This document shows, one piece after another, positions 359-13,007 of a stretch of DNA of 16,701 nucleotides. Position 1 is the stretch's first letter. Each line of letters starts with the position of its first letter. Origin of the DNA: a bacterium (lineage in GTDB: Bacteria; RBG-13-66-14); the NCBI GenBank assembly GCA_021107695.1, contig JAIOSI010000289.1, forward strand, positions 1-16,701. The letters are read 5' to 3'. The notes under the pieces were generated by a model, which was not told the origin of the DNA, did no database searches, and was given only the letters and a program-made list of their open reading frames with translations. The position numbers and the translations under genes are program-made.

Positions 359-718
359 ATGGCTAAGAAAATGGTAGTATTCTGCGGTAGCGATCACGTT
401 GAAAAGGCCTTTCCTCCCTTCATGCTTTCCGGCGGTGCGATTGCTCTGGACATGGATATCACTCTTTTCTTCACGATGAGTGGTTTGAACATTATCAAAA
501 AGGGCGGTGCGGAAAAGATCACCCTCAAGGGTGCACCGAAGACACTTCCAGGATTCATTGATCTGATGAAAGAGTACAACGTCCGGATGATCGCCTGTTC
601 TGCTGCTCTGCCTCTGGTCAATATGACCGAGAAGGATATCATCGATGGCGTGGAGTTCAACGGCATCGCCACCTTCCTCGCCCTGGCAGAAGAAGCGGAC
701 ATCGTCCTGACCTTCTAG
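359..718 (+). CDS. DsrE/DsrF-like sulfurtransferase-family protein
   Basis: This 119-residue protein has the compact alternating beta-alpha pattern of the DsrE/DsrF/peroxiredoxin-like family. It has a hydrophobic beta strand at the N-terminus (MVVFCG, Cys9), a segment DITLFFT (33-39), and a conserved-position cysteine Cys80 in IACSAAL. In family members such as DsrE and TusD, the equivalent cysteine carries a persulfide and passes sulfur to TusA or related carriers. The next gene is tusA, which supports that role. The ATG at 359 follows GGAGG (349-353) with 5-base spacing. It is cytoplasmic, with no signal peptide. The family call is fairly firm; the partner and substrate are inferred. A long gap of 331 bases separates it from tusA. 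Confidence 0.82.
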   Translation: MAKKMVVFCGSDHVEKAFPPFMLSGGAIALDMDITLFFTMSGLNIIKKGGAEKITLKGAPKTLPGFIDLMKEYNVRMIACSAALPLVNMTEKDIIDGVEFNGIATFLALAEEADIVLTF

Positions 719-832
719 CAACGCAGGGAGTTGCATCACAGGGCTGGGCTTCGCCCAGAACACCTTGGGGATGTCCGCTCCCACTGACTGCTCAAAGCTG
801 TTGGTTTTGTAGGGGCGTATTGAATGCGCCCC
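719..832 (+). repeat. Composite intergenic repeat, copy A
   Basis: This begins right after the DsrE-like stop codon. It contains the palindrome CTGGGCTTCGCCCAG and ends in the small palindrome GGGGCGTA (812-819) / TGCGCCCC (825-832). The block aligns with 8890-9010 at roughly three quarters identity by eye, and a shorter inverted copy lies at 7427-7472. The rest of the gap before tusA (833-1049) holds no gene I can support. The 719-1049 gap interrupts what otherwise looks like one transcription unit. Confidence 0.7.
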
Positions 833-1049
833 GGCAATATCGTCTCGGGTGGGGTGAAAGGTATCTCCCAAACAGTATCATGTTTAATTGCCGTTGCTAC
901 TCCTGAGAACCGTTATACACTAGCTCTTTTCTTTATTCCGCTTTGAGAAGGGTTTCACGGACTTCAGCGGTGTGCTAACATCGACTCCTGCTTCATAAGC
1001 TGTCCCATGAACATCTAAACGATGAACGAAAACCATAGAGGAGATGTAA

Positions 1050-1304
1050 ATGACTAACGAAGAACTCATGGCTCTGGAAATAGCCAGCACGATTGACGCT
1101 CGCGGCACCGCCTGTCCTGGTCCTCTGCTCGAGGCAAAGCGCGGTATGACCAAGGTTCCGATGGGCGAGGTCATGGTCGTTCTCTCGTCGGACGAAAGTA
1201 CCAACAACGACATCCCGATGTGGTGCAAGAAGGTTGGACACGACTTCCTGGGTAACATCGAAGCCGACGGTTACTGGCAGCTATTCATCAAACGGGGCAA
1301 ATAA
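1050..1304 (+). CDS. TusA-family sulfur carrier protein
   Basis: The 84-residue protein has the usual TusA length and its signature CPGP at residues 22-25, preceded by DARG. The motif cysteine (Cys22) is the persulfide carrier in TusA, SirA and YeeD proteins. TusA accepts sulfur from cysteine desulfurases or DsrE-like proteins and delivers it to tRNA thiolation, molybdopterin or dissimilatory sulfur enzymes. Here it sits between a DsrE-like protein and Hdr subunits, which favours a role in energy metabolism over tRNA modification. The ATG follows AGAGGAGAT (1037-1045). Its stop codon directly abuts the ATG of the next gene, so the two are almost certainly cotranscribed. A second cysteine is at residue 59. 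Confidence 0.92.
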   Translation: MTNEELMALEIASTIDARGTACPGPLLEAKRGMTKVPMGEVMVVLSSDESTNNDIPMWCKKVGHDFLGNIEADGYWQLFIKRGK

Positions 1305-1712
1305 ATGCCACGCGACAAAGCTAGAATCTTAGTCTTCTCGACCAACAACATCTCCGATCCAGGGATCGACCTGGCGGGCGGTGCTCACATGAGCTACCCC
1401 CCCGAGGTGATGGTTGTTAACGTTCCCTGCTCCAGCGGGATTCGTCCCTCCTGGGTGCTTCATGCCATCGAGGCTGGCTTCGACGGGGTCTTCATTGCCG
1501 CCGATGGAACCGACTGCGCCTATCTCTCCGACTGTACCCTGCGTACCGGCGAGGTAGTAGCGATGTCTCAGGAGCTGCTCCGCGAGCATGGACACAACGC
1601 CAAACGCCTGAAGATGGCTGCGATCTGCTCGGTCTGTGCCGAGTCCTTCGTCGGTCATATGGAAGCCTTCACCAAGGTTCTCATTGGATTGAATGAAGCA
1701 GCTGCCGCATAG
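1305..1712 (+). CDS. MvhD/HdrA-associated iron-sulfur subunit family, altered cysteines
   Basis: This 135-residue protein follows the MvhD (F420-non-reducing hydrogenase delta subunit) layout. It has an N-terminal strand then DLAGG, a CSSGIRP segment (42-48) matching the usual CSGRxDP, HAIEAGFDGVFIAADGTDCAY (53-73) matching the usual EGADGVxVxGCxxGDCHY, and a helical C-terminus. MvhD carries a 2Fe-2S cluster and wires a hydrogenase or dehydrogenase to HdrA. Here the N-terminal CxxC region is replaced by STNNIS (12-17), and the GC position is Asp67. Cys42 and Cys71 remain, and Cys77, Cys108 and Cys111 (CSVC) are unusual. The cluster may be lost or rebuilt. The gene starts immediately at the tusA stop. 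The family call is good; the function of the altered protein is unknown. Confidence 0.78.
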   Translation: MPRDKARILVFSTNNISDPGIDLAGGAHMSYPPEVMVVNVPCSSGIRPSWVLHAIEAGFDGVFIAADGTDCAYLSDCTLRTGEVVAMSQELLREHGHNAKRLKMAAICSVCAESFVGHMEAFTKVLIGLNEAAAA

Positions 1713-1745
1713 CGTAACGGTTGGCTGAGAGACTATTGTCCTACA

Positions 1746-1897
1746 CTCCGCTTCTTTGTAAGCGGAGCGCACTTATAGATTTACCTAACCGATACCGTTT
1801 GGATTGTTGCGGGGTTTTGATGTTAAGACAAGGGGTTTCAACCCCTTGTGGAGTGGGCTACGGACTCCGATTGCGCAAGGTGGCGATCGCTCCTTGC
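1746..1897 (+). repeat. Three consecutive hairpins between the MvhD-like gene and hdrA
   Basis: There are three clear inverted repeats. The first is CTCCGCTT/AAGCGGAG (1746-1753, 1760-1767). The second is ACAAGGGGTT/AACCCCTTGT (1828-1837, 1840-1849), a near-perfect 22-base palindrome. The third is GCAAGG/CCTTGC (1875-1880, 1892-1897), enclosing the octamer GCGATCGC (1883-1890). None is followed by a convincing T-run, so they are not typical intrinsic terminators. They may be repeat elements, mRNA-processing sites or stabilising stems within the operon. I see no gene in 1713-1964. Confidence 0.6.
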
Positions 1898-1964
1898 CTC
1901 AACACCTCGTATGGAGAATCTCTTCCCATTTTATGGGATACAAACAGCATTATAAGGTCAGGGC

Positions 1965-4673
1965 ATGGATTACGACATTCTGATCGTCGGCGGCGGGATC
2001 GCCGGAATGGAATCGGCACTCTCCATGGGAGAGATGGGCTACAAGGTGCTTCTCGTGGAGAAAGAGCCTAGCATTGGCGGGAAGATGGTCCTGCTGAGCA
2101 AGGTCTTCCCCACCCTGGACTGCGCCAGCTGCATCTCGACTCCCAAAATGGCATCCACTGCTCATCATTCTAATGTGGATGTGCTGGTCAGCAGCAAGGT
2201 AAGCGAGATTACTCGCAACGCTGATGGTAGCTTTACCGTGCGATTGCACAAAAAGCCGACCTTCGTTGACTCCGATGCCTGTACTGGTTGCGGTGAGTGC
2301 GAGCTTACCTGTACTGTGGCACTCCCCGACGAGTTCAACTTTGACCTCACCGCCCGGCGGGTCGCCCACATCCCCTATCCTCAGGCAGTGCCGAAGAAGT
2401 CGGTTATTGACCGTCAGGGTTTGTCTCCCTGCTCCTACAGTTGTCCAGCCGGGGTCAAGGCTCACGGCTACGTTTCTCTGGTACGCAGTGGTCAGTACGA
2501 GAAAGCCTTCCGCCTCCACATGGAAGATGCTCCCCTGCCTGGCAGCCTCTCTCGCGCCTGTTATTCCCCCTGTGAAGAGCAGTGTACCCGGGGCGATTAC
2601 GAAGGTACGGTGGCAATTCGTGGTATCAAACGCTTCATGGTGGACTACTACTACGATAAACACCCAGAGCCGGAGTACGGTCCCGCTGAGGTACAACAAG
2701 AGAAGAAGGTTGCCATCATCGGTTCCGGTCCCAGCGGACTCACCGCCGCCTACCACCTCGGTCGCCGAGGCTATCCGGTTACAATCTTCGATAACATGCC
2801 TGAGGCAGGGGGAATGTTGCGCCACACCATCCCCTCCTTCCGTCTGCCCAAAGATGTCCTCGACCGCGATATCAAGAACATCACCGCCCTTGGGGTGGAA
2901 ATTAAGACCAATAGCACCATAAACGACCTTGGCAAGCTGAAGGACGAGGGCTACGATGCGATATATATCGCCGTGGGTGCGGGAATGCCCCAGATGATGG
3001 GTATCGAGGGTGAGGGACACCTCAATGTTCTCGATTGCCTGACCTTCCTCAAGCAGGCCCAGGACGAAGAAAAGCCCCACGTAGGTCGCCATGTCGTGGT
3101 GGTTGGTGGCGGTAACGTGGCGATGGATGTCGCTCGCACGGCTCGCCGTCTGGGAGCCGAGTATGTTCATATTGTCTATCGTCGTACTGTAGAGCAGATG
3201 CCCGCTCACAAGTGGGAGATTGCCGAGGCGAAGGCCGAAGGGGTTATATTCCATCCTTCTGTCGTTATTACTCGGGTGATCAGCACAGCCGACGGCGGAA
3301 TGGCATTGGAGTGTAATCGGACTGTCAGTCAGCCGTTGAGTACCAGTCGCCAGTCCAGCGGACCCTACGTTACCGATGAGACGATCGCTATTCCCGTAGA
3401 TACCGCTGTTCTGGCAATCCCCGCCATCGGCAATAAGCCGAACACCGTCCCCTTTCGCAACGATTTGGCAATCAACTCCAACAGCACCATTCGGGTAAAC
3501 AACTCCAGCCTGCAGACCAGCCTGCCGCACATCTTTGCCGGTGGCGACTGCGCGACGGGAGCCTCCACCATTGTCGAGGCGATCGGTCAGGGTAAGCGGG
3601 CGGCGTTCTATATTGACCGCTATCTTCAGGGTGATAAACTTAACATCGCCTTCGATGAACGCCTGCCGATGACCGACAAGCACTCTGTTCACGAACGCGA
3701 GCGTCGAGTAACTGAGCTTGAGCCGTTGATTGACCCAGAGCTGGATGCCACTGAGCGTGTTGATAACTTCGATGAAATTGCCGGAACCTTTACCGAGGAG
3801 CAGGCTCGCTACAGTGCCAACCGCTGCCTGGACTGTGGTTACTGCTCAGAATGCAACGAGTGTATTGCGACCTGTCCGTCGGACGCTATCCGACTCGACC
3901 AGAAAGCTGAAAAGTCAGTCCACAAGGTTGAGTCGGTTATCGTTGCCACCGGGTTTAAGCTCTTTGACCCAGCAAAGAAGCCAGCCTTGCGACCAGACCA
4001 CCCCAACGTCATCTCTGCCATGCAGATGGAGCGTCTGCTGTCACCGACCCGACCGTACAACAATCTGCTGCGCCCCGGCGATGGTCGTCGTCCCGACAAC
4101 ATAGCCTACGTCATGTGCGTTGGCTCCCGAGACCACGCTGCGGGTAACCCGATCTGCTCCCGAATCTGCTGTGTGTACACCGCCAAGCAGGCGCAGCTGA
4201 TTATGGGCGCGTTGCCCTTGGCAGATATCACCGTCTATTACATAGACATCCGTGCCTTCGGCAAGGGATACGACGAATTCTACCAGCAGGCAAGCGACAT
4301 GGGGGTTTACTTTACCAAGGGGCGGGTTGCTAAAATCGATCCCGCCGCCGATGGCAACCTGACTCTCCATTACGAAGATATTGTCCACGGTGGCATCAAG
4401 ACCGCTAACCACGACCTCGTGGTGCTGGCTACTGGTTTGCAGCCGGAGATGGGCGTGGCATCCCTCTTCAGGGATGAGAATCTAGAACTCGACGAGCTGT
4501 TTTATGTCAGCGAGACAGAGCTTGACTATAGCCCAGGTCAAACCAGCCTGGATGGAGTCTTCGTTGCCGGAACGGCTTCAGAACCACGGGACATCCCGGA
4601 CAGCATCCTCCACGCTGGCTCCGCCTCGGCCCTGACGGCAGCCTATCTCGAAAAGCGCAAACGCAATACCTAA
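1965..4673 (+). CDS. HdrA-like flavoprotein with an inserted GltD-type NAD(P)H:FAD module
   Basis: This 902-residue fusion starts with an HdrA FAD motif (VGGGIAG, 8-14), the HdrA cysteine loop DCASCISTPKM (52-62) and a 4Fe-4S set C106/C109/C112/C116. From about 150 to 615 a GltD/NfnB-like module is inserted. It has N-terminal cysteines 156, 160, 199, 203 and 207, an FAD loop IIGSGPSG (251-258), an NAD(P)H loop GGGNVAMD (381-388) with YRRTVEQMPA (405-414), and FAGGDCATG (524-532). A cysteine cluster C621/624/627/630/633/637 follows. HdrA sequence then resumes with CVGSR (718-722), CSRICC (731-736) and VFVAGT (865-870). HdrA is the bifurcating flavoprotein of Hdr complexes; the insert suggests direct NAD(P)H exchange. 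The N-terminal domain and C-terminal ferredoxins of classic HdrA are absent. AAGG (1954-1957) precedes the ATG. Confidence 0.9.
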   Translation: MDYDILIVGGGIAGMESALSMGEMGYKVLLVEKEPSIGGKMVLLSKVFPTLDCASCISTPKMASTAHHSNVDVLVSSKVSEITRNADGSFTVRLHKKPTFVDSDACTGCGECELTCTVALPDEFNFDLTARRVAHIPYPQAVPKKSVIDRQGLSPCSYSCPAGVKAHGYVSLVRSGQYEKAFRLHMEDAPLPGSLSRACYSPCEEQCTRGDYEGTVAIRGIKRFMVDYYYDKHPEPEYGPAEVQQEKKVAIIGSGPSGLTAAYHLGRRGYPVTIFDNMPEAGGMLRHTIPSFRLPKDVLDRDIKNITALGVEIKTNSTINDLGKLKDEGYDAIYIAVGAGMPQMMGIEGEGHLNVLDCLTFLKQAQDEEKPHVGRHVVVVGGGNVAMDVARTARRLGAEYVHIVYRRTVEQMPAHKWEIAEAKAEGVIFHPSVVITRVISTADGGMALECNRTVSQPLSTSRQSSGPYVTDETIAIPVDTAVLAIPAIGNKPNTVPFRNDLAINSNSTIRVNNSSLQTSLPHIFAGGDCATGASTIVEAIGQGKRAAFYIDRYLQGDKLNIAFDERLPMTDKHSVHERERRVTELEPLIDPELDATERVDNFDEIAGTFTEEQARYSANRCLDCGYCSECNECIATCPSDAIRLDQKAEKSVHKVESVIVATGFKLFDPAKKPALRPDHPNVISAMQMERLLSPTRPYNNLLRPGDGRRPDNIAYVMCVGSRDHAAGNPICSRICCVYTAKQAQLIMGALPLADITVYYIDIRAFGKGYDEFYQQASDMGVYFTKGRVAKIDPAADGNLTLHYEDIVHGGIKTANHDLVVLATGLQPEMGVASLFRDENLELDELFYVSETELDYSPGQTSLDGVFVAGTASEPRDIPDSILHAGSASALTAAYLEKRKRNT

Positions 4674-4711
4674 GTAACTTCCTTATCCCAGGAAGCAGGA
4701 ACGGGAAATAG

Positions 4712-5266
4712 GTGGCGCAGTTGGAAACGTTTGCAGAGCCTAAAAAACTGGCTAAAGACACTGGTTATCAAGCTCAAAGACTAGAAAAACTGGCTGGTTT
4801 CACCGACAGTATGATAGACGCTCCCATCAGGGAACTTGTTAGACACATCAACGATTTGCCTTACTGTTTTACGCTCCAGTGTTGCTATGGTCACTTCACT
4901 TACGATGGGCAACGTGATCCTTACAATTTTGAGGCTTTGCCACGTACGACCAGGATAAAATCCGTGGAGTACCGGATAGCCTACGTTGCCTTTTGTATCA
5001 AAAATAGTGTGTTCGGAAGAACTTTACTGGAAGATATCAACAGAATAACAACTGTTGATCCGAAAAACGTACAGATTTGTAGTGCAGAGTGGTTCTGGAA
5101 GAAACAGGTCAACTCTTATGCGTTGCAGGTGGAGCCATATCGATTTAGACATAAGGACAAAGTCATACTTGATTATGAAGAAGCCTTACATATAGAAAAA
5201 GTACGACATGAGTTTTTTGTCAGACTTGAAGAGTTGTTCCAAAAACTGAGGATAACCGATGAGTAA
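4712..5266 (+). CDS. Conserved-looking hypothetical protein, AT-rich, within the hdr operon
   Basis: I do not recognise the function of this 184-residue protein. It has a motif-like stretch INDLPYCFTLQCCYGHF (46-62), with Cys52, Cys57 and Cys58, a segment SAEWFWKKQVNSYALQVEP (124-142), and a charged, coiled helical C-terminus. The Cys-rich stretch loosely recalls TYW3-type proteins, but I would not assign that. Sampled GC is about 37%, against about 57% in the next gene, which suggests a different origin. The start is the GTG at 4712 with AGGA at 4697-4700; a later start at the Met34 codon is possible. Its end overlaps the hdrA-2 start by 8 bases (ATGAGTAA), so translation is probably coupled. 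Confidence 0.75.
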   Translation: MAQLETFAEPKKLAKDTGYQAQRLEKLAGFTDSMIDAPIRELVRHINDLPYCFTLQCCYGHFTYDGQRDPYNFEALPRTTRIKSVEYRIAYVAFCIKNSVFGRTLLEDINRITTVDPKNVQICSAEWFWKKQVNSYALQVEPYRFRHKDKVILDYEEALHIEKVRHEFFVRLEELFQKLRITDE

Positions 5267-6998
5267 AGAGCGCAGAATCGGCGTGTATGTTTGCTACTGC
5301 GGCGGTAACATCTCCGACTACGTGGATGTGGAGGCAGTACGCGATGCCTTGGAAAATGAAGACGGTGTCGTCGTTGCCAAAACGCACATGTTCACTTGCT
5401 CCGACGCTTCTCAGCAACTTATGATCGATGAGATTGGCGAGGAAAACCTCGATGGTATTGTGGTGGCATCTTGTTCGCCAAAGCTGCACCTCCACACCTT
5501 CCGCGAAATGGCGAAGCGCGCCGGACTCAACGAATATACCTACAGTCAGGTTAACATTCGTGAGCAGGACTCTTGGACGCACCGCCATGATGTGGAAGCG
5601 GCTACGGAAAAGGCCATTCGCCTAGTCCGTGGTGGCGTTGCAAAGACGAAGCTCACCGCTCCGCTAAAGAATATCCGTATAGAGACCAAACCTAGGGTGT
5701 TGATTGTTGGTGCTGGTGCTGCTGGATTGCGGGCATCTTTGGTACTGGCGGACATGGGACTGACCGTCTATCTGCTGGAAAAGGAAGATGAGCCGGGTGG
5801 CTGGGTGAAGAAATGGGGCAAGATGTTCCCCAACAACAAGCGTGGGGATGAATCAATCGCCAAGCTGGTTGCTAAGATTCGCACCAGTGAGAGCATTACC
5901 CTCTACACAAACGCACGGCTTATTGAGAAGAGCGGCTCTCTGGGTGACTTCGAAGTCAAAATCGAGGTCAAAGGCGAGACGATTCCTCTCAATGTTGGTG
6001 CGATTATCGTAACTACGGGCTTCAAGCCCTACGAACTTGCTCAGGATGAATTCGGTCACGGACTAAACGGTGTCATTACCCTGCCTGAATACAAAGAAAT
6101 ACTCTTCGCCAGCGGTGAGGATAAGCTGATCCACAACGGAAAACCAGTAAAGAGCGTTACCTTCGTTCACTGCGTTGGCAGCCGTCAGCGACAGGAAGAC
6201 TACGATAAGCCAAATCTCTATTGCTCTCGTTACTGCTGCACCGCTTCTATCCACTCCGGTCTCACCACCAGGGGCATTGACCCTAGTATTCATCAGTATC
6301 ACCTCTTCCGGGACATCCGTAGCTATGGTCGCTACGAGCTTCTCTATGAGGAAGCTCGCAACGGCGGCTCGCTCTTCTTGCGCTACGATCCCGACAGTCC
6401 TCCTATTTTTGAGCAGGCAAAAAATGGTCGGGTGCGTATTCAGGTCAAAGACCAGCTCACCGGCAATGAGGAACTGGAACTGGAGACTGACCTCGTCGTC
6501 CTGGCTACGGGAATGGTTCCCCGTGAGAACGACGAACTCAATAACGTCCTCAAGCTTCCCATCGGACTCGACGGTTTCTACAACGAGATTCATCCCAAGC
6601 TACGCCCGGTGGAGACGGTGGTTGACGGTGTCTTCATCGCTGGAACCTCTCAAGGACCAAAGAATCTTGCCGAAAGCGTCTCTTCTGCTCTGGCATCAGT
6701 TTCCAAGTCCGGCGGACTGCTGATGAAGGGCTACGTCGATCTGGAGCCCTTCGTCGCCATCGTCGATGCCGACAAATGCACCTGGTGCGGCAAGTGCGAG
6801 GAGATCTGCCCCTACGGCGCAATTGAGAAGATAACCGCTGAGGACGGCTCAAAAGAGATCGCCCTGATTACCAAGGCTGTTTGCAAGGGTGGAGGAACCT
6901 GCGTTCCGGTCTGTCCCGAAGGGGCGATCGATATCGAAGGCTACACCAACGAGCAGATTACCTCGCTCATCGATGCAATGATTAAGGAGGTCGTCTGA
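5259..6998 (+). CDS. HdrA-like flavoprotein with C-terminal ferredoxin domain (second HdrA)
   Basis: The 579-residue protein has the HdrA N-terminal domain (VYVCYCGGN 9-17, Cys47, SCS at 71-73), an FAD loop VGAGAAG (150-156), HCVGSR (304-309), YCSRYCC (321-327), VLATGMVP (414-421) and VFIAGTSQGP (458-467). It ends with a ferredoxin domain, C507/C510/C513/C517 and then C542/C548/C552. Position 545, normally Cys in the second motif, is Gly. The central HdrA cysteine loop (CxxCxxTPKM) and central ferredoxin are missing; that region reads KKWGKMFPNN (184-193). This is the reverse of the upstream HdrA, so the two may work as complementary halves. GAGGA (5248-5252) precedes the ATG, and the start overlaps the upstream gene by 8 bases. 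Confidence 0.9.
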   Translation: MSKERRIGVYVCYCGGNISDYVDVEAVRDALENEDGVVVAKTHMFTCSDASQQLMIDEIGEENLDGIVVASCSPKLHLHTFREMAKRAGLNEYTYSQVNIREQDSWTHRHDVEAATEKAIRLVRGGVAKTKLTAPLKNIRIETKPRVLIVGAGAAGLRASLVLADMGLTVYLLEKEDEPGGWVKKWGKMFPNNKRGDESIAKLVAKIRTSESITLYTNARLIEKSGSLGDFEVKIEVKGETIPLNVGAIIVTTGFKPYELAQDEFGHGLNGVITLPEYKEILFASGEDKLIHNGKPVKSVTFVHCVGSRQRQEDYDKPNLYCSRYCCTASIHSGLTTRGIDPSIHQYHLFRDIRSYGRYELLYEEARNGGSLFLRYDPDSPPIFEQAKNGRVRIQVKDQLTGNEELELETDLVVLATGMVPRENDELNNVLKLPIGLDGFYNEIHPKLRPVETVVDGVFIAGTSQGPKNLAESVSSALASVSKSGGLLMKGYVDLEPFVAIVDADKCTWCGKCEEICPYGAIEKITAEDGSKEIALITKAVCKGGGTCVPVCPEGAIDIEGYTNEQITSLIDAMIKEVV

Positions 6999-7243
6999 TG
7001 GCACGCAATGCGGAACGCCCCCTGCGGCAGGCTCTGCGAGACGAGATGTACCTGAAAGACAGGATCATCTCTACGCTTAAAGAAAGCCCCAAGACGATCC
7101 CCCAGATTCAGGAAGCTCTGGGTGAGTACCCTATCCACGAGGTGGTTTACTGGGTTGCCGCGCTCTGGCGGTTCAAAATCCTCGAAGAAACCGGTAAGCC
7201 CGACTTCGAAGGCTTCTATACCTACGAGCTTAGGGAAGAGTAA
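6998..7243 (+). CDS. Small winged-helix-like protein in the hdr operon
   Basis: This 81-residue protein is basic at its N-terminus and has the pattern of a small winged helix. Helix one is DRIISTLKESP (21-31), a TIPQIQEAL helix (33-41) suggests helix-turn-helix element one, and YPIHEVVYWVAALWRFKILEETG (44-66) suggests a recognition helix and wing. Its ATG shares one base with the hdrA-2 TGA stop, and a strong AAGGAGG (6984-6990) precedes it, so it is a genuine coupled gene. Size and position suggest a structural accessory or a local regulator of the Hdr operon. The fold is inferred by eye; DNA binding is not shown. Confidence 0.75.
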   Translation: MARNAERPLRQALRDEMYLKDRIISTLKESPKTIPQIQEALGEYPIHEVVYWVAALWRFKILEETGKPDFEGFYTYELREE

Positions 7244-7317
7244 CAGTAAAAGACCTTTGCAAGATGCCGTTACGGCGTAGATTTGACCTTGGTCATTAAA
7301 CAGCTTTGTAAATGTAG

Positions 7318-7354
7318 GGCGGGCATTGTCCCATCGACTAAAATGCCCGCCGCA
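7318..7354. repeat. Palindromic intergenic repeat, copy 2
   Basis: Arms GGCGGGCATT and AATGCCCGCC flank a 14-base spacer almost identical to that of the copy at 1-37. The left flank reads TGTAGG, the hallmark of the other palindromes in this window. It lies between the winged-helix gene and hdrC, inside the presumed operon. Confidence 0.75.
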
Positions 7355-7426
7355 GGCTGAAGCAAGCAATGGCGGCGACTATAATCCCCGCTGCGAATAA
7401 GCAACAGCGATAGAATACAACAGTGA

Positions 7427-7472
7427 TTTTCTGGGCGAAGCCCAGTAACGGGATGCAACGCCCTTGCGTTGC
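7427..7472 (-). repeat. Composite intergenic repeat, short inverted copy B
   Basis: Read on the - strand this matches the left part of the composite repeats at 719 and 8890: CAACGC, then GTTGCATC, then the palindrome CTGGGCTTCGCCCAG. It is followed on the + strand by a CCCCCTC/GAGGGGG hairpin (7476-7494), which ends just before the hdrC ribosome binding site. The 7244-7509 gap is therefore almost entirely repeat material. Confidence 0.65.
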
Positions 7473-7509
7473 CTGCCCCCTCAAGATGAGGGGGATAGGG
7501 GAGTTGAGA

Positions 7510-7812
7510 ATGTATAAGATAGATGCTGATTTTGTTGAGGCGGTTAGCCACTCCGACGAGTTCAACGCCAACGCCTGTATGCACTGTGGCAACTGCACCG
7601 CCAGCTGCCCAATGGGGCTGGAGCTGTTGCCGAGGAAGCTCTTCCGCTACGTAGTCGTCGGGCTAGAGAAAATGGTGGTCGAGAACGCCGAGACCATCTA
7701 CTCTTGCCTGCTCTGCAAAATGTGCGAGGAGAGCTGTCCCGCCGATGTCCACATCGCCGGGAACGTTAAGAAGCTGCGCAACTACATTAACACGAAGTAT
7801 TACAAGCTCTAG
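7510..7812 (+). CDS. HdrC-like protein with two 4Fe-4S clusters
   Basis: This 100-residue ferredoxin-type protein has two full CxxCxxCxxxCP sets, Cys23/26/29/33 and Cys66/69/72/76, in the arrangement and spacing of HdrC. In Hdr complexes HdrC passes electrons from HdrA to the catalytic HdrB. The ATG at 7510 follows GGGGAG (7497-7502). The frame stays open further upstream to a GTG at 7423, but that extension would be translated repeat DNA and is rejected. The HdrB-like gene follows 47 bases later. It is cytoplasmic. No unusual residues are visible. Confidence 0.9.
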   Translation: MYKIDADFVEAVSHSDEFNANACMHCGNCTASCPMGLELLPRKLFRYVVVGLEKMVVENAETIYSCLLCKMCEESCPADVHIAGNVKKLRNYINTKYYKL

Positions 7813-7859
7813 TTCTCGTCTGGATACACTCTGGTGAGTTACCCAACTGAGGTTTTGTT

Positions 7860-8834
7860 ATGGCGTTACCGACCGGTAAAGTTATCGGAATCATGGCCGA
7901 TAACCTGCGCAAGCGGAAGAACGTGATTCCCCTCTCCGCAAAGAAGTCCACCGCCTGGGCGGAGGGACTCAACCTGCCCCGTGGCGGAGAAACGGTAATC
8001 TATACCGGACTGCTCTATCAGCTGATGCCGGGGATTACCGGGCTGGCGGCGAAGATGGCGAGCTATGAGAACTCCTTCATGCGCCACCTGATGGGCATGG
8101 GACGGCTGGCGAACAAATTCATCAACGTCGCCGCCTTCATGGGCGGGGCAAAGCCCGCCGTTTACAAAGAGTACAACAGGATTCTGCGGAACATCGCCTG
8201 CCTACTGCAAAAGTCAGGGGTGGAGTTCGGTTACCTCTACGAGCAGGAGCTTTACACAGGAGCCCTGCTCCACGACAACGGGGTTGAGCATCTGGTCAAA
8301 AAACAGGCACGGCGTATCTGGGATGTCCTCCAGGCGAATGGGGTGAAGGAGGTCATCACCACCGACCCCCACACCACCAACATGCTGCGCAGCGTCTTCC
8401 CGGAGGTGATCGAGGGCTACGACCTCAAGGTACGCAGCTATCTGGAGGTACTGGCGGAGGTTGCGCCGGAAGCCACCAATCCGCTCAACAAAGAACTCGT
8501 CATCCACGACTCCTGCATGTACGCCCGTTACGAAGATGTGATTGACGAGCCGCGCCAGGTTCTGGCAAAGGCCGGAGCGAAGGTCGTCGAGCCGGACTAC
8601 GCTGGCAAGCTGACCTGGTGTTGCGGCGGACCGGTGGAGAGCCTCTTCCCGTCAAAGTCAAAAAAGGTTGCCGAGGAACGGGTCTCCCAGCTGGCAGAGA
8701 ACGGCAGGCAGATCACCGCGATGTGTCCGATCTGCGTCTTCAGTCTCCGCGAAGCCGCCGAAAAGCGAGACGACGGCACCGAGATCCACGACATCATCGA
8801 CCACCTCAGCGAGGCTTACTGCCTCGATAAGTAG
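7860..8834 (+). CDS. HdrB/HdrD-like CCG-domain protein with one intact cysteine-rich motif
   Basis: This 324-residue protein has one complete CCG (DUF224) motif: Cys219 (HDSCMYAR), Cys254-Cys255 (WCCGGPVE) and Cys289/Cys292 (MCPIC). The spacing C-x34-CC-x33-CxxC fits a non-cubane 4Fe-4S site of the HdrB type. HdrB and HdrD usually have two CCG motifs. Here the N-terminal region (VIYTGLLYQLMPG, 46-58) keeps the strand pattern but lacks the cysteine. The HdrC-HdrB order matches Hdr operons, so this is the likely catalytic subunit, reducing or oxidising a disulfide or persulfide substrate. TGAGG (7848-7852) precedes the ATG. An intrinsic terminator follows 24 bases after the stop. The substrate is unknown. 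Confidence 0.85.
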   Translation: MALPTGKVIGIMADNLRKRKNVIPLSAKKSTAWAEGLNLPRGGETVIYTGLLYQLMPGITGLAAKMASYENSFMRHLMGMGRLANKFINVAAFMGGAKPAVYKEYNRILRNIACLLQKSGVEFGYLYEQELYTGALLHDNGVEHLVKKQARRIWDVLQANGVKEVITTDPHTTNMLRSVFPEVIEGYDLKVRSYLEVLAEVAPEATNPLNKELVIHDSCMYARYEDVIDEPRQVLAKAGAKVVEPDYAGKLTWCCGGPVESLFPSKSKKVAEERVSQLAENGRQITAMCPICVFSLREAAEKRDDGTEIHDIIDHLSEAYCLDK

Positions 8835-8858
8835 CTAAAAGCAGAGTTTAGGGAAATC

Positions 8859-8888
8859 AAAAGGGCAAACCCGTGGGTTCGCCCTTTT
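8859..8888 (+). terminator. Intrinsic terminator of the hdr operon
   Basis: AAAAGGGC and AACCC pair with GGGTT and GCCCTTTT to form a stem of about 13 base pairs with one mismatch, ending in TTTT. It lies 24 bases after the HdrB-like stop, and the strand fits. Confidence 0.8.
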
Positions 8889-8889
8889 G

Positions 8890-9010
8890 CAACGCGGTGC
8901 GTTGCATCACAGAGCTGGGCTTCGCCCAGAACACCTTGACATCGTTCGCTCCCGCTGGTCACTCGTAAATATGGTTTTGATAATGTAGGGGCCGACCTTC
9001 AGGTCGGCCC
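8890..9010 (+). repeat. Composite intergenic repeat, copy C
   Basis: This second full copy of the block at 719-832 shares GTTGCATCACAG, then CTGGGCTTCGCCCAGAACAC, then CGCTCCC, and ends with TGTAGGGG. The terminal palindrome here is GGGCCGACCT/AGGTCGGCCC (8989-8998, 9001-9010), with a different stem sequence from copy A. The gap 8835-9151 between the Hdr operon and the tRNA gene contains only this, the two terminators and short linkers. Confidence 0.7.
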
Positions 9011-9151: not shown

Positions 9152-9226
9152 TGGCTGGGGCGGTAGGATTCGAACCTACGAATGGCGGCCCCAAAAACCG
9201 CTGTCTTACCGCTTGACGACGCCCCA
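9152..9226 (-). tRNA. tRNA-Gln (anticodon UUG)
   Basis: This 75-base gene on the - strand has acceptor arms TGGGGCG and CGCCCCA, discriminator G and an encoded CCA. The anticodon stem GCGGT/GCCGC carries the loop TTTTGGG, which places TTG at the anticodon. The T arm contains GGTTCGAATCC. All parts fit bacterial tRNA-Gln. The 5' end is 43 bases after the spoVG stop, so it is probably processed from an ispE-spoVG transcript. Linkage of ispE, spoVG and tRNA-Gln is familiar in bacteria. Confidence 0.95.
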
Positions 9227-9269
9227 GCAGTACCCGTCGGCAAGGTGGATTGTAACATAAAGGGGTTGT

Positions 9270-9680
9270 TTACTCGTCGTCGGGTTCCTCGCTGGGTTCC
9301 TCTTCTTCAGCTAATTCTTCGGGCTCTTCGTCATCGGTTTCTTCATCGGAGTAGAGTCGGGCGCGCATCGCTTCATCCTCGTCTTCTATATCGTCCTCCA
9401 CCGGCTCCTCGGCGGTGTAAAGCTGTTCACGCATTGTCTCGTCGTAGCGATCGAGGATGGCTTTCTCGATCATCTCTCTGGTGGCGGTGTTGAGGGGATG
9501 GCAGACATCGCGGCGGGTACCGTCGCGGCGTTTCTTGTTGGGCATGGCAACCCAGAGACGGTCGGTGCCGTCGATCACCCTGAGGTCTTTGACAATAAAG
9601 CAATCGTCAAAGACGACGGAGGCGTACGCCTTCAATCTCTCTTCGTCGCGGATGCTGATTTTAACGTCGGTGATTTCCAT
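9270..9680 (-). CDS. SpoVG-family regulator with a long acidic tail
   Basis: The first 80 or so residues are typical SpoVG: MEITDVKISI at the start, LKAYASVVFDDCFIVKDLRV (16-35), and AMPNKKRRDGTRRDVCHPLN (45-64) with the basic surface used for nucleic-acid binding, then REMIEKAILDRYD (68-80). SpoVG is a DNA/RNA-binding regulator, about 85-100 residues in most bacteria. This one has 136 residues. Residues 83-136 form an extremely acidic tail with a repeated unit, MRxxLYxxEE, at 83-92 and 105-114. The ATG is preceded by AAGGA. It sits 62 bases downstream of ispE on the same strand and ahead of tRNA-Gln. The family call is strong; the tail's role is unknown. Confidence 0.93.
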   Translation of the reverse strand: MEITDVKISIRDEERLKAYASVVFDDCFIVKDLRVIDGTDRLWVAMPNKKRRDGTRRDVCHPLNTATREMIEKAILDRYDETMREQLYTAEEPVEDDIEDEDEAMRARLYSDEETDDEEPEELAEEEEPSEEPDDE

Positions 9681-9742
9681 GTTTTTCCTTCGAGAGTAGT
9701 GAGTTCGGAAGTTGCGGGAGGTTGTTCTTGCTGTTAATTGGT

Positions 9743-10612
9743 TCAGGAGGGTTCTCGCAGGGTGATTCCCTTAGAAACGATTCGGGTTGGAATGGCGGCA
9801 ACGCCGTTCATCTCCAGTTCACGGGCGATAATTCCGGCCTCTTCAAGGTCGCTGGCAACCCCAAAACAGGTCGAGCCGGAGCCGGACATCGAGACAGGAT
9901 TAAGCTCGGTCTGGTGGAGTTTATCGAGGGTTTTCTCCACCGCGATAAAGGTGTCGGTAACCGGAGCAATAAAAGCGTTGGGCAGCTCTGCTGGAGTCTT
10001 GCCACCACCAAGCCACTTAACAATTGGCTTGGTATCCAGCTTGCCAAAGTCCCTTTCGCTAAGGGCGTTATACGCCCAGCCCGTAGAAACAGCGGCGCGG
10101 GGAAAGGCGATCACCAGGCAAATCTCCTGCTTTAACTCAATTGGAGTGAGCAGCTCGCCCCTGCCCTCTACCAGTGCCGCACCGTCATTGAGGAAAAAAG
10201 GAACATCGGAGCCGAGGCTCACCGCCAGGTCAAGTAGCCCCTTGTGATTCAGCGGTTGACCGGTTAGCTCGTTCAGTCCCAGCAGGGTTCCGGCGGCGTT
10301 GCTCGAGGCCCCGCCCAATCCTCCACCCGGAGGGATTCGCTTGAAAATCTCAAAGTGATAGTCAATGTCCTTGCCAGTTTCTTTGGCAAAGAGTTTTGCC
10401 GCCCGCCAGACCAGATTGTTCTTGTCCGTTGGCACACTATCCGCACCGTGGACGGCAAGGGAAAACTCGGCAGCTTCCTCGATTACCAGACGGTCACTCA
10501 ATCCGATATTGACGAAGACGCTCTCCAGATCGTGATAGCCGTCGGCGCGTTTGCCGATGATGGCAAGACCGAGGTTGAGTTTTGCCGGACAGGTGATTTC
10601 GATTCTCAGCAT
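9743..10612 (-). CDS. 4-diphosphocytidyl-2-C-methyl-D-erythritol kinase (IspE)
   Basis: This 289-residue GHMP kinase has family length. It opens with CPAKLNLGL (8-16, catalytic Lys11), has KRADGYHDLESVF (21-33), the ATP loop PPGGGLGGASSNAA (94-107), the catalytic Asp136 in LGSDVPFF (133-140), and motif 3 SMSGSGSTCFG (241-251). It phosphorylates CDP-methylerythritol in the MEP isoprenoid pathway, in the cytoplasm, using ATP. The start is fixed by homology: only the ATG at 10612 gives the normal IspE N-terminus. There is no Shine-Dalgarno sequence ahead of it. It heads the - strand unit ispE-spoVG-tRNA-Gln. Confidence 0.97.
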   Translation of the reverse strand: MLRIEITCPAKLNLGLAIIGKRADGYHDLESVFVNIGLSDRLVIEEAAEFSLAVHGADSVPTDKNNLVWRAAKLFAKETGKDIDYHFEIFKRIPPGGGLGGASSNAAGTLLGLNELTGQPLNHKGLLDLAVSLGSDVPFFLNDGAALVEGRGELLTPIELKQEICLVIAFPRAAVSTGWAYNALSERDFGKLDTKPIVKWLGGGKTPAELPNAFIAPVTDTFIAVEKTLDKLHQTELNPVSMSGSGSTCFGVASDLEEAGIIARELEMNGVAAIPTRIVSKGITLREPS

Positions 10613-10618
10613 GGGAGC

Positions 10619-10648
10619 AAACTAACACAGTCTTATTCCGATAGTCAA
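10619..10648 (-). promoter_or_regulatory. Possible ispE promoter giving a leaderless mRNA
   Basis: On the - strand TTGACT (10648-10643) is followed after 18 bases by TAGTTT (10624-10619). The -10 box is weak but keeps the key T1, A2 and T6. The start of transcription would fall at or within a base or two of the ispE ATG, which matches the absence of a ribosome binding site. Confidence 0.35.
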
Positions 10649-10713
10649 GCAGACTATGGTTGATTAACTGCGGATTATTTTCTTCAAAAAGCTCAACAGG
10701 GGCAATTTGAGCG

Positions 10714-10742
10714 TTGACGAAGTGCAAACAAGGTGCTATATT
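10714..10742 (+). promoter_or_regulatory. Sigma70-type promoter of the secreted-protein gene
   Basis: TTGACG (10714-10719) and TATATT (10737-10742) are separated by exactly 17 bases. The predicted start near 10749 gives a leader of about 135 bases. That leader has no gene I can support; it contains the direct repeat GTCTGGAG at 10855 and 10871. Confidence 0.65.
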
Positions 10743-10883
10743 GGGACGTGGATGGTGTGTCGGAGCAATGGGGCAGGTGGGAGAGTCTTTGTCCTGTTTT
10801 TGGCTTGCTGAAATCTTTTGGGGGATCAGGCGTGTATCCAGCTGTAGAACCCGCGTCTGGAGTAACCTGTGTCTGGAGGACCA

Positions 10884-11681
10884 ATGTTTAAACTGTCTGT
10901 AGTTTTATGTTTGTTTCTTGCCTTCACCGCGTTGGGGTACAATCTGCTGCTGATCGACGATTACGCCGCCAGCGGCTCCAACTCCGATTTTGAGGAGCTG
11001 ATCAACCGGGGTATTCTCGAAGGCATGGGTATCAGCTATACCTACATTTACAACAACAGCGTTACCAAGAGAACCGAGGACGCGAGCTACCTCGCCAACT
11101 ACGACATTATCCTCTGGAACACTTGGAACCGGGTGATCAGTGCCGAGGAGAAAAACACGCTGGGTGCCTGGGTTACAACAGGGGCTTATCTGGTTGTTAC
11201 CGGTTTTGATGCTCTGGGTAGTCCAACGGATGTTAATGCCGCCGCCCTGGTACATTCGATCAACAGTGGTGATTTTTCGTATACTGCGAAGTATCGAATC
11301 TACGACGTTGATCACTGGATGACCGACGGAATCTATGAATACACCGCTGGTCTTGAAGGGGATTTCTATTCGGAATCAACCGATCACGACTTGGCTGGTC
11401 CGTCGGCCGGTACTCTTGCTTTGGGAATCGTTTGGGATGGGAGTGGCAGTGGTGGTTTCTTTGGACCGATTAAGTTTATGGTTACTGAGAACATCGGTAA
11501 CGGCGGGATCGTTGTCTATTGGAACGGTAACAAGAACGTCCACGACTGGTCGAACTTCACCTATCAGCCCCACCTGGTAAACATGTTCCGCAACATGATG
11601 GATTATCTGTGTTTTATCGATCCGCCATCCAGCATTGAGACGGTAAGCTGGGGACAGATCAAAGCGACCTTTAGTAACTAA
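10884..11681 (+). CDS. Secreted hypothetical protein, amidotransferase-like alpha/beta fold
   Basis: This 265-residue protein starts with a clear signal peptide: Lys3, a hydrophobic core LSVVLCLFLAF (4-14) and a likely cleavage after TALG (15-18). The mature part begins with a Rossmann-like strand NLLLIDDYAAS (20-30), then a helix, YDIILWNTWNRV (73-84) and AYLVVTGFDALG (101-112). This resembles a class I glutamine amidotransferase or ThuA-like fold, without an obvious catalytic Cys-His pair. The rest is rich in Gly, Asn, Tyr and Trp, typical of extracellular proteins. The C-terminus SWGQIKATFSN matches a nearby gene remnant. The ATG at 10884 follows GGAGGA (10875-10880); a GTG at 10869 would spoil the signal peptide. 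The function is unknown. Confidence 0.75.
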   Translation: MFKLSVVLCLFLAFTALGYNLLLIDDYAASGSNSDFEELINRGILEGMGISYTYIYNNSVTKRTEDASYLANYDIILWNTWNRVISAEEKNTLGAWVTTGAYLVVTGFDALGSPTDVNAAALVHSINSGDFSYTAKYRIYDVDHWMTDGIYEYTAGLEGDFYSESTDHDLAGPSAGTLALGIVWDGSGSGGFFGPIKFMVTENIGNGGIVVYWNGNKNVHDWSNFTYQPHLVNMFRNMMDYLCFIDPPSSIETVSWGQIKATFSN

Positions 11682-11714
11682 GCTGATCGGTCGCTACAGA
11701 TGATGATTTTACGA

Positions 11715-11743
11715 GGGACGGGCAAATTGCTTGTCCCTTTCTT
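11715..11743 (+). terminator. Intrinsic terminator after the secreted-protein gene
   Basis: GGGAC...GTCCC with two G-T pairs and a further GCxxxGC inner stem (11715-11737) is followed by TTTCTT. It lies 33 bases after the stop codon on the same strand. Confidence 0.65.
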
Positions 11744-11804
11744 AACAGGCTGCGGATTCAATCTATAGGGGCAGACTGATTCTCTGAATGAGACCTTTGC
11801 ATAA

Positions 11805-11963
11805 CTCAATGCTTTTGACTGTTCGCCTGTTCGGGAGGCTGCCGCCTGGATCGAAAAAGATTTTCCCCGTGAAGTAGAACAAGCAACGATGGTGGAACTG
11901 GACTGGACTCAGACCAACGCTGAGGAAACCACCTTCGGTCAGATTAAGGCAATGAGCTTCTAA
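11805..11963 (+). pseudogene. 3' remnant of a gene with the same C-terminal tail as the upstream secreted protein
   Basis: The frame is open from just after a stop at 11802-11804 to the TAA at 11961-11963, about 52 codons, with no plausible start and ribosome binding site. The only ATG (11889) would encode 23 residues. The reading includes AAWIEKDFPREVEQA and ends TTFGQIKAMSF, closely matching SWGQIKATFSN at the end of the gene at 10884. A terminator follows, as it would after a real gene end. I read it as a decayed or deleted paralogue. The 11682-12119 gap otherwise holds two terminators and a promoter. Confidence 0.5.
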
Positions 11964-11989
11964 GAAGTGGTTTTTTATAGTGATTGAGA

Positions 11990-12014
11990 AGAGCCGTTCG
12001 CGGCTCTCCCTTTT
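11990..12014 (+). terminator. Intrinsic terminator after the gene remnant
   Basis: AGAGCCG, a TTCG tetraloop and CGGCTCT (11990-12007) form a perfect 7-base-pair stem, followed by CCCTTTT. It lies 26 bases after the remnant's stop codon. Confidence 0.7.
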
Positions 12015-12035
12015 CATTTCTTACAATAGGCTCGT

Positions 12036-12064
12036 TTGCTTAACGCCGGATATTATTGGATAAT
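12036..12064 (+). promoter_or_regulatory. Likely promoter of the methyltransferase gene
   Basis: TTGCTT (12036-12041) and GATAAT (12059-12064) are separated by 17 bases, with four and five consensus matches. Transcription would start near 12071, about 50 bases before the chosen start codon. Confidence 0.5.
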
Positions 12065-12119
12065 AGAGATTCACTCGTGATTGTGTGGAGATTCTGGCAA
12101 TTTGCTGAAGGAATCGGAT

Positions 12120-12878
12120 TTGAGTTTAACGAAGGGCGTAAAGGAGCGGCAAGACTTTTTTCGAGCGGAGCAAGACCCAGGACCGCTGACCGGTCTGGCT
12201 CTGGGTGAGCCGCTGGGTCGTTCACTACCACTACGGGAGCTTTACCGAACCTGGTGGGCGGCACTGAGAGACCTCAGTGGTCGCTGGGTGCTGGAGCTGG
12301 GCTGTGGCTACGGTGGCGAGTTGCTCGGCCTGACCAAACGAGGAGCCAGAGCCGTTGGACTGGACATCACCGCCGCCCGACTTCATCAGGCGGTGAAGAA
12401 CGCGCCCGCTGCCGGATTCGTCCGAGGCGATGCCGACCGCCTGCCCTTTGCCAATGAATCGTTCTACGCCGTGATTGGTAACGCCGTACTGCTGCATCTT
12501 CACAGAGAGCGCACGATGGCGGAGCTGCGCCGGGTTCTAAAGCCCGGCGGCGTGGCGATCTTCCTGGAGCCACTCACTGGGCATCCGCTGATTGACCTCT
12601 ACCGTCGGTTCTTTACCGCTTCCCGGCGGGGGCATGTTGACTACCCCAGCTTCAGGGAACTTCTACATGGCTCTCTCGGCAGCAAAACCGAGGTAACCGC
12701 TTGGTATCTGACTGCTGCTCTCCCGCTGATTCTGGTTCGCATCTTCGGTAGCTCACGTCTGTTGCGGGGGCTAACCCGGCTACTGGGACGGCTGGACAGC
12801 TGGCTCTTCAAACAACTTCCCAGCCTGAAACACCGCGCCTGGCTGGGACTGGTTGTGTTTCGTAAAGAGAACATTTAA
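12120..12878 (+). CDS. Class I SAM-dependent methyltransferase
   Basis: From the TTG at 12120 the protein has 252 residues. It has a class I methyltransferase core: the SAM-binding motif I VLELGCGYGGELLGL, the acidic strand-2 end AVGLDIT, GDADRLPFAN as motif II/III, and LRRVLKPGGVAIFLEP as the post-motif strand. This resembles the Methyltransf_11 group of small-molecule methyltransferases. The C-terminal third (about 165-252) is leucine- and arginine-rich, with a hydrophobic stretch LTAALPLILVRIFG that could contact membrane. The start is uncertain. The TTG at 12120 has AAGGAA (12108-12113) at good spacing, while a TTG at 12081 has no such signal. The substrate cannot be told; no biosynthetic neighbour helps. 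Confidence 0.85.
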   Translation: MSLTKGVKERQDFFRAEQDPGPLTGLALGEPLGRSLPLRELYRTWWAALRDLSGRWVLELGCGYGGELLGLTKRGARAVGLDITAARLHQAVKNAPAAGFVRGDADRLPFANESFYAVIGNAVLLHLHRERTMAELRRVLKPGGVAIFLEPLTGHPLIDLYRRFFTASRRGHVDYPSFRELLHGSLGSKTEVTAWYLTAALPLILVRIFGSSRLLRGLTRLLGRLDSWLFKQLPSLKHRAWLGLVVFRKENI

Positions 12879-12901
12879 CGCTTATGAAACCTTTGAATAA
12901 G

Positions 12902-12968: not shown

Positions 12969-13007
12969 AGACTTCCTAAACGGTGCAGCACCTATGTATC
13001 CGTCATA

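Follow-up and report, generated by a model that had tools for sequence, protein, structure and literature searches.

The window analysed here is a bacterial stretch of 16,701 nucleotides (contig JAIOSI010000289.1, assembly GCA_021107695.1), and it carries an operon in which genes for the sulfur carriers TusA and DsrE stand beside those for an FlpD/MvhD-like protein, two unlike HdrA proteins, a small winged-helix protein, HdrC and HdrB. Synteny of this kind recurs in 44 further loci, which rules out chance as the source of the gene set. As the best explanation we propose, with moderate confidence, that the operon encodes a soluble Qmo-like flavin/Fe-S complex coupling the sulfane sulfur on TusA/DsrE to NAD(P)H and to either quinone or HdrCB.

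Gene content of the operon

A list of open reading frames (ORFs) combined with Pfam and NCBIfam searches of the window yielded nine ORFs, all on the + strand and spanning 359-8834. The source assembly amounts to 1.83 Mb and is 70.6% complete. The original prediction, made from the sequence alone, had named co-directional DsrE-like, TusA, MvhD-like, HdrA-GltD, HdrA, winged-helix, HdrC and HdrB-like genes; the family matches and ORFs bear these assignments out, the winged helix being recovered through an AlphaFold model. The genes are as follows:

359-718, + strand: DsrE2-like sulfur carrier, short form, 119 aa (DrsE_2, 76.2 bits; DsrE2 equivalog, 78 bits against a cut-off of 210)
1050-1304, + strand: TusA sulfur carrier with the CPGP motif (74.6 bits)
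1305-1712, + strand: FlpD/MvhD-like protein (FlpD, 93.9 bits)
1965-4673, + strand: HdrA-GltD, HdrL-like, 902 aa (PRK12771, 501 bits, cut-off 516; HdrA2 model, 426 bits, cut-off 1100)
4712-5266, + strand: passenger gene with a TYW3-like fold, 184 aa (fold matches, base composition, no homolog in the loci scanned)
5259-6998, + strand: second HdrA, 579 aa (HdrA2 model, 474 bits, cut-off 1100)
6998-7243, + strand: small winged-helix protein, 81 aa (AlphaFold model; no family from Pfam/NCBIfam)
7510-7812, + strand: HdrC, 2x[4Fe-4S] (Pfam/NCBIfam match)
7860-8834, + strand: HdrB-like protein with one C-terminal CCG (non-cubane cluster) domain (CCG, 44.5 bits)

The TusA and FlpD genes abut, and those of the second HdrA and the winged-helix protein overlap by one base. 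HdrC probably starts at the ATG at 7510 rather than at 7423, the start given in the ORF list. Several of the products retain their characteristic cysteines. The DsrE2-like protein, whose short form is also seen in L073, L074 and L105 (119 aa in the last; L numbers are our handles for loci and G numbers those for genomes), keeps the family-aligned cysteine in the motif IACSAA. The TusA motif cysteine is present in all 17 aligned rows, as CPGP in 16 and as CPEP in L008, and the eight ligand cysteines of HdrC are likewise present in 17/17 aligned rows, six of which are N-termini of QmoC-like proteins. The FlpD/MvhD-like protein is presumably a [2Fe-2S] electron-transfer subunit. The N-terminal half of the HdrB-like protein is devoid of CCG cysteines, and its CCG domain shows five cysteines in 10 of the 11 aligned rows, the eleventh presumably being L008, which is cut by a contig end. 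A sequence comparison of this protein with the PDB returned one weak match.

Conservation across genomes

We read 45 loci, the window included (33 plus 12), all of which were selected by a match to HdrA-GltD and several of which come from near relatives; such a selection gives no measure of how frequent the other genes are where HdrA-GltD is absent. A genome scan also brought in 19 Chloroflexi-type loci with another kind of HdrA, and these were excluded from the synteny counts, five of them giving rows in the tree described below. The scan located HdrA-GltD loci in Peptococcaceae, Desulfotomaculum, Actinomycetota, Thermoleophilia, Bacteroidota, Zixibacteria and an Alphaproteobacterium, and relatives of HdrA-GltD further carry the names of Latescibacterota, Acidobacteria, Verrucomicrobia and Calditrichaeota (genomic context not seen).

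Upstream of HdrA-GltD, both TusA and FlpD were found in all 40 loci that have room for them, the contig starting at or inside HdrA-GltD in the other five; L117 has DsrE between FlpD and HdrA-GltD. The winged-helix gene is equally constant (41/41 loci with room, four being cut off before its position). DsrE was found in 38 of the 45 loci, and in L002, L006, L008, L012, L018 and L075 the sequence is incomplete at one or both ends. In the set of 12 loci, all from the Bacillota class of the Peptococcaceae genome G062, the order is uniformly TusA-FlpD-HdrA(GltD)-HdrA-wH-HdrC-HdrB-DsrE, where wH denotes the winged-helix gene. DsrE is the first gene, and short, in the window, L073, L074 and G605, and it also comes first in Bacteroidota and some Actinomycetota-class loci (L011, L013, L114, L115 and L121). 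Thus, the conservation of gene order that the original prediction proposed as a check is borne out across phyla in the 45 loci.

The distribution of the system is patchy. Carriers number at least 21 of 113 genomes in the Bacillota class of the Peptococcaceae and Desulfotomaculum carriers, at least 17 of 249 in an Actinomycetota class and at least 5 of 386 relatives. These counts are lower bounds, since up to eight, three and two candidates, respectively, were scored per genome, and incomplete carrier loci were missed (for example G078 in the Actinomycetota-class set).

The two HdrA proteins and their phylogeny

The product of the HdrA-GltD gene begins directly at its FAD domain, the N-terminal HdrA domain being absent, as is the ferredoxin at the C-terminus. 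A GltD-type NAD(P)H/FAD module interrupts the inserted ferredoxin domain that remains, the PRK12771/GltD matches falling within residues 145-648 with HdrA on either side. The second HdrA consists of an N-terminal HdrA domain, an FAD domain and a C-terminal 2x[4Fe-4S] region, and is without the inserted ferredoxin and the DCxxC motif. In HdrA-GltD 21 cysteines are invariant in 17/17 full-length sequences, and in the second HdrA the N-terminal, FAD-domain and C-terminal cysteines are invariant in 18/18 rows (a ligand position at residue 545 is taken up below). Because each protein keeps what the other has lost, namely the inserted ferredoxin in one, which also gains the GltD module, and N-terminal domain and C-terminal ferredoxin in the other, with the invariant cysteines lending support, the two appear to be complementary halves of an HdrA pair.

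A phylogenetic tree was computed with IQ-TREE from 61 HdrA FAD domains, comprising 17 of the second HdrA, 17 of HdrA-GltD, 5 sHdrA, 6 QmoA/QmoB, 7 HdrL, 4 HdrA from the PDB and 5 of the Chloroflexi type. The sHdr, Qmo and HdrL labels were assigned from gene context, the Qmo rows lying next to apr/sat, and partial or near-duplicate rows were omitted (L018, L012 and L008 for HdrA; L008 and L075 for HdrA-GltD). The second HdrA and HdrA-GltD each formed a single group with support of 100/100, and both groups lie outside sHdrA (5 rows), QmoA/QmoB (6 rows) and the CoB-CoM HdrA from the PDB (4 rows). The sHdrA rows form a group of their own (100/100), as do QmoA and QmoB together (100/99). Placement outside the sHdr and Qmo clades had been suggested as a second check on the original prediction, and it holds for the sHdrA, QmoA and QmoB rows available. 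Five of the seven HdrL rows group away from HdrA-GltD, and the long HdrL proteins of L078 and L100 join it weakly (91/73). The deep branches are weak (60/85), and the nearest HdrA kind to both groups is not settled by this tree.

The genome of the window also has a second HdrA-GltD (HdrL) locus, L072 (G000:C41:5000-17098), with the order HdrC-HdrB-HdrA-MvhD followed by hydrogenase-like genes. Its HdrL is 943 aa long, has its N-terminal HdrA part in a separate ORF and is placed elsewhere in the HdrA tree. An association of HdrL with MvhD is known from the literature (PMC2702500), and together with the G000:C41 locus it could be taken to mean that the operon encodes an ordinary HdrL/MvhD bifurcating complex acting on another disulfide, with TusA and DsrE next to it by accident. 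However, the unbroken linkage of TusA and FlpD to HdrA-GltD in the 40 testable loci speaks against this, as do the separate position of the G000:C41 HdrL in the tree and the lack of any TusA or DsrE match in its 12-kb stretch. We regard such incidental neighbourhood as very improbable.

Interchangeable output modules

HdrC and HdrB are present together in 31 of the 45 loci, and a QmoC-like membrane protein in eight (L005, L009, L011, L013, L014, L016, L118 and L121). At the thresholds used the two never occur in the same locus, five loci being cut by contig ends at this point. By eye, the QmoC-like proteins have an HdrC-like N-terminus followed by several hydrophobic segments, and the six that were read are 371-390 aa long. 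Two of the eight were compared with the NCBI QmoC model and matched it over nearly their full length, at 173.9 bits (L005) and 209 bits (L011), below its cut-off of 300. The proteins of L118 and L121 were detected with a hidden Markov model (HMM) derived from the remaining six. We conclude that the output module is interchangeable, being either HdrCB or QmoC-like. Because the QmoC-like protein replaces HdrC and HdrB in eight loci, the chemistry of HdrB is not that of the shared reaction, which should not need its non-cubane cluster, and HdrB as a universal active site is ruled out. Of the persulfide-linked NAD(P)H complex originally envisaged, the linkage to the carriers and the NAD(P)H module stand, but HdrB does not belong to the constant core.

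This swap mirrors Qmo, and one might count the operon among the type II Qmo systems, a loose grouping of HdrA-like QmoAB plus QmoC with or without Apr and Dsr, whose qmoAB are closer to HdrA and are found with or without Dsr/Apr (PMC10504309). Against such membership, the description of the group in the available part of that paper includes no TusA, DsrE or GltD insertion, and our HdrA rows stand apart from the group formed in the tree by the Qmo rows, which were labelled by their apr/sat context. We consider membership in this group improbable, and return to the reading of the operon as a Qmo-like complex with sulfur-carrier and NAD(P)H partners of its own.

The winged-helix protein and a passenger ORF

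The AlphaFold model of the 81-aa protein is a winged helix (pLDDT 88.9). In the two Bacteroidota loci with a complete HdrA, L011 and L013, the winged helix forms a C-terminal extension of HdrA (27.6 and 47.5 bits). On account of these two fusions we read the winged-helix protein as probably a subunit, and rejected a role as regulator only. The Foldseek list for it contains generic winged helices, none at E <= 0.001. DsrD, a small protein tied to DsrAB activation by Neukirchen et al. (PMC10504309), stands at rank 38, and the predicted likeness to it is a lead only. The winged helix is not the 'hyp' gene of sHdr either, as the latter encodes about 290 aa and the winged-helix HMM matched no ORF of the sHdr reference loci L092-L098.

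The gene termed 'unknown' in the original prediction does exist at 4712-5266, but it is a passenger outside the conserved set. It is AT-rich, with a third-codon-position GC content (GC3) of 0.43 as against 0.62-0.79 for the other operon genes. No homolog was detected among the 38 loci scanned, including the window's own entry L001, which ends before this gene, and in L073-L075 HdrA-GltD abuts HdrA directly. A PDB sequence search with the 184-aa protein gave nothing useful. The missing homologs, its own base composition and the TYW3-like fold rule it out as a subunit of the operon. TYW3 is an archaeal/eukaryotic enzyme of tRNA wybutosine synthesis, and the large bacterial TYW3-like branch to which this protein points is a curiosity in itself: the protein has 1638 homologs, and among the 120 listed, four of the six rows with an organism name belong to Desulfobacterales, Thermodesulfobacteriota or Deltaproteobacteria.

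Sulfur and NAD(H) context

The original observation that the locus encodes no recognised dissimilatory sulfur enzyme holds at the level of the operon, and neither DsrA nor AprA was found in the window's 70.6%-complete assembly. Across 22 carrier genomes, DsrA scored above cut-off in three and AprA in three, the latter on contigs other than that of the locus. Genuine sHdrB1 was found in 0 of 23 carriers, of which 13 gave weak matches (42-86 bits) and 10 none, compared with 1079 bits in the control G316.

Judged by family, the genes next to the loci suggest a link to reactive sulfur. A type III SQR (616 bits, cut-off 525) lies about 1.2 kb upstream of DsrE-TusA in the QmoC-type locus L121, and TauE of the sulfite-exporter family lies upstream in L003 and in no other locus. 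Regulators are frequent: a BigR-like ArsR regulator occurs in L017 (74 bits, cut-off 155), a cysteine-bearing ArsR family stands upstream of TusA in L010, L014, L112, L113, L118 and L119, and further ArsR-type genes lie upstream in L006 (divergent) and, by eye, in L131. In L120 a regulator of the cysteine-bearing ArsR family and TusA share one ORF (6698-7426, + strand; NCBIfam matches at 27-99 and 167-241), which suggests a cognate regulator. CsoR-like regulators were noted in eight Bacillota loci, through Pfam in L003 and by eye in L004, L126, L129, L130, L132, L136 and L137. We rejected the identification of the latter type as CstR, its cysteine pattern by eye being unlike that of CstR.

On the NAD(H) side, HdrB in G605 (L106) is followed by a [2Fe-2S]/[4Fe-4S] protein with a GcvH-like domain and then by a NuoEF-like diaphorase (Complex1_51K, 150 bits). 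The GltD module and this diaphorase would both support a link to NAD(H). The GcvH-like domain (PF01597, 66.5 bits; ORF at 13772-15058 of L106, - strand) is by eye without the lipoyl lysine, and its fusion is a faint echo of the LbpA of sHdr.

This context can be read in two further ways. In an oxidative version, the sulfane sulfur on TusA/DsrE would be oxidised towards sulfite with the electrons passing to quinone/HdrCB and NAD(P)+, making the operon a counterpart of sHdr. TusA, DsrE and LbpA do occur with sHdr, and TusA/DsrE have been proposed as its sulfur donors in sulfur oxidisers (PMC6067878). The SQR near L121, the TauE near L003 and the BigR-like regulator of L017 are likewise in keeping with oxidation, but the window has neither a lipoate-binding protein nor a further pair of HdrB and HdrC, and genuine sHdrB1 was found in none of the 23 carriers. 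Moreover, NAD+ is on thermodynamic grounds a poor acceptor for sulfane-sulfur oxidation without coupling, and we consider this version rather unlikely. Alternatively, the adjacency of ArsR-, BigR- or CsoR-type regulators to many loci and the patchy distribution (at least 5 of 386 relatives) could fit cytosolic sulfane-sulfur homeostasis or detoxification by an NAD(P)H-driven persulfide reductase under thiol-based repressors. Detoxification would, however, be a costly use of a large complex that has many clusters and a quinone-linked variant, and the NuoEF-like module after the G605 locus also argues against such a role, which we hold to be improbable.

Comparison with known systems

The operon resembles sHdr in the linkage of TusA and DsrE to Hdr subunits and in its flavin/Fe-S proteins, and an ArsR-type regulator was recognised by eye in one of the sHdr loci, L093, as well. 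The differences are extensive: the sHdr reference loci L092-L098 carry HdrC1-B1-A-hyp-C2-B2 whereas the window has one HdrC and one HdrB; LbpA-like genes occur in L093, L095, L097 and L098 with no such domain in the nine window proteins; and the sHdr HdrA forms a separate tree group, with no GltD module or FlpD match in sHdr loci. The proposed inventory of one HdrB, one HdrC, two unlike HdrAs and an NAD(P)H module, distinct from sHdr, is thus confirmed by gene set and tree. With Qmo the operon shares two unlike HdrA subunits and an interchangeable QmoC or HdrCB, QmoAB-HdrCB being found in Gram-positives (PMC10504309). However, type I Qmo has AprAB as its partner and its QmoA/QmoB form a distinct group, no AprAB or Sat is present in the window operon, and TusA, DsrE, a separate FlpD, the GltD insertion and the winged helix are features of the latter. 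By the tests made the operon is a member of neither sHdr nor type I Qmo, and membership in type II Qmo is, from the description of that group, improbable.

The HdrA with a GltD-type module that the original prediction named is indeed present, but this kind of protein has been known since 2009 as HdrL of Desulfobacterium autotrophicum, where MvhD is adjacent (PMC2702500). The same report describes one D. autotrophicum locus with tandem hdrL/hdrA together with HdrB- and HdrC-like genes. The window protein differs from HdrL in having 902 aa without both HdrA ends, as against 1129-1503 aa in six of the seven HdrL rows (943 aa in L072), in standing apart from five of these rows in the tree, and in being TusA-adjacent wherever this was testable.

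HdrA, HdrC, HdrB and MvhD modules also make up the CoB-CoM HdrABC-MvhAGD of methanogens. In contrast to that complex, the window HdrB has one CCG domain, the parts of HdrA are spread over two proteins and the operon has no hydrogenase gene. Two CCG domains in HdrB are a feature of the HdrABC/HdrD disulfide reductases, and two are stated for one HdrB in PMC4911364. TusA occurs with DsrE in the YTD cluster of sulfur disproportionators (YedE-TusA-DsrE plus hypotheticals), but the window operon has no YedE, and the YTD cluster is described, in the available parts of the two papers, without Hdr genes (PMC8780430, PMC12998232). Finally, NAD(P)H (DsrL) or Hdr (FlxABCD-HdrABC; PMC10504309) can be coupled to DsrAB and DsrC, neither of which is encoded in the window operon. 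Already known singly are the GltD-inserted HdrA, the module swapping of Qmo and the TusA/DsrE/Hdr linkage. The combined gene set is not described in the open-access literature searched, most subscription papers and bioRxiv preprints lying outside this coverage.

Proposed function

In the proposed Qmo-like complex, FlpD, HdrA-GltD, HdrA and the winged-helix protein would be the constant core, and TusA and DsrE its persulfide-carrying sulfur partners. Electrons would enter from NAD(P)H at the GltD flavin, pass by way of the HdrA-GltD clusters and the HdrA flavins, and arrive at FlpD and at the sulfane sulfur on TusA/DsrE, with release of sulfide. The output module, HdrC plus HdrB here and a quinone-linked QmoC-like protein elsewhere, would exchange electrons with a second partner. 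The complex may accordingly be pictured as a Qmo/HdrL hybrid, in which TusA/DsrE persulfide and NAD(P)H take the place of the APS reductase partner of Qmo. That these partners are linked in a physical complex is quite probable. As to the direction of the reaction, persulfide reduction is the likelier, with about an even chance of holding in most hosts, and true flavin bifurcation is conceivable though doubtful. Still more tentative, and on balance unlikely, is the broader notion of a respiratory sulfur module, a 'persulfide:NAD(P)H/quinone oxidoreductase' in which TusA/DsrE persulfide would be the direct electron partner of a flavin complex with two HdrA proteins, one that also handles NAD(P)H and either quinone or a soluble HdrB partner and is able to bifurcate or confurcate. 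In most of the non-Bacillota carriers tested, no Dsr, Apr or sHdr that could accompany such a module was detected.

A number of observations weigh against the proposed Qmo-like complex. L116 has neither output module; L120 is without DsrE though both its flanks are present, and L002 is without it in 1.5 kb upstream. Residue 545 of the window HdrA, a ligand cysteine of the last [4Fe-4S] cluster, is a glycine (CKGGGTC); the same is seen in L073 and L075 (CKGGGPC), which are of the same family as the window, with cysteine in the other 15 of the 18 rows. In the Bacillota class of G062, DsrA is present in 20 of 21 carriers as against 55 of 92 non-carriers (Fisher p 0.0016, kinship uncorrected). This enrichment contradicts Dsr-independence as a general rule, and the system may serve DsrC or Dsr in this class. 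By eye no regulator was recognised in further loci whose upstream region is available (L005, L011, L127 and L128 among them), metals too are sensed by members of the CsoR and ArsR families, so that sulfur is a putative ligand here, and the SQR and TauE neighbours would also fit an oxidative role. In the window itself, gaps containing repeats split the gene run. Lastly, the support for the complex comes from sequence.

Transcription signals and flanking genes

Gaps of 331, 252 and 266 bp interrupt the gene run. The following elements were located in and around it:

215-243, + strand: promoter-like site TTGACA-17-TATGCT with extended -10 TG, 10/12 (promoter scan)
711-786, + strand: dispersed repeat copy in the DsrE-TusA gap (genome-wide core matches)
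7429-7464, - strand: inverted, more diverged repeat copy in the winged-helix/HdrC gap (83-85% complementary; absent from the genome-wide core matches)
8858-8889, + strand: hairpin with a short T run (four T), candidate terminator (-18 kcal/mol; z -1.77; 11 of 200 shuffles as good)
8882-8957, + strand: dispersed repeat copy after HdrB (genome-wide core matches)

The repeat core GCTGGGCTTCGCCCAGAACACCTTG has 39 matches (<=2 mismatches) in the assembly and none in the reversed control, and its copies sit in the first (331-bp) gap, the third (266-bp) gap and the 3' flank. The 'good promoter' and intrinsic terminator of the original prediction survive in part. The promoter-like site is present, but such sites occur at chance level in the region (6 observed, 5.6 with a standard deviation of 2.2 in shuffles), and the hairpin is present, but has four T only and is not in the list returned by a terminator scan of the region. 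A single transcript for the window genes is plausible, but is not established because of the three gaps and of the repeat copies that occupy two of them and the 3' flank.

Downstream, at 9152-16549, lie tRNA-Gln (-), SpoVG (-), a GHMP kinase family gene (-) that is probably IspE, an unassigned gene (+), a methyltransferase (+), RNase J (+) and a PAS/histidine kinase (-). No evident link of these genes to the operon was noted.

Implications

The exchange of HdrCB for a QmoC-like protein indicates that modules with two HdrA proteins can be connected to different electron partners in settings other than sulfate reduction. The operon bears on the question of how anaerobes that lack Dsr or sHdr oxidise or reduce sulfane sulfur in the cytoplasm. 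A culturable Bacillota carrier, if one exists, would make it directly testable. The near-fixed eight-gene set, shared by several phyla, could represent a part of anaerobic sulfur metabolism that has so far escaped notice.

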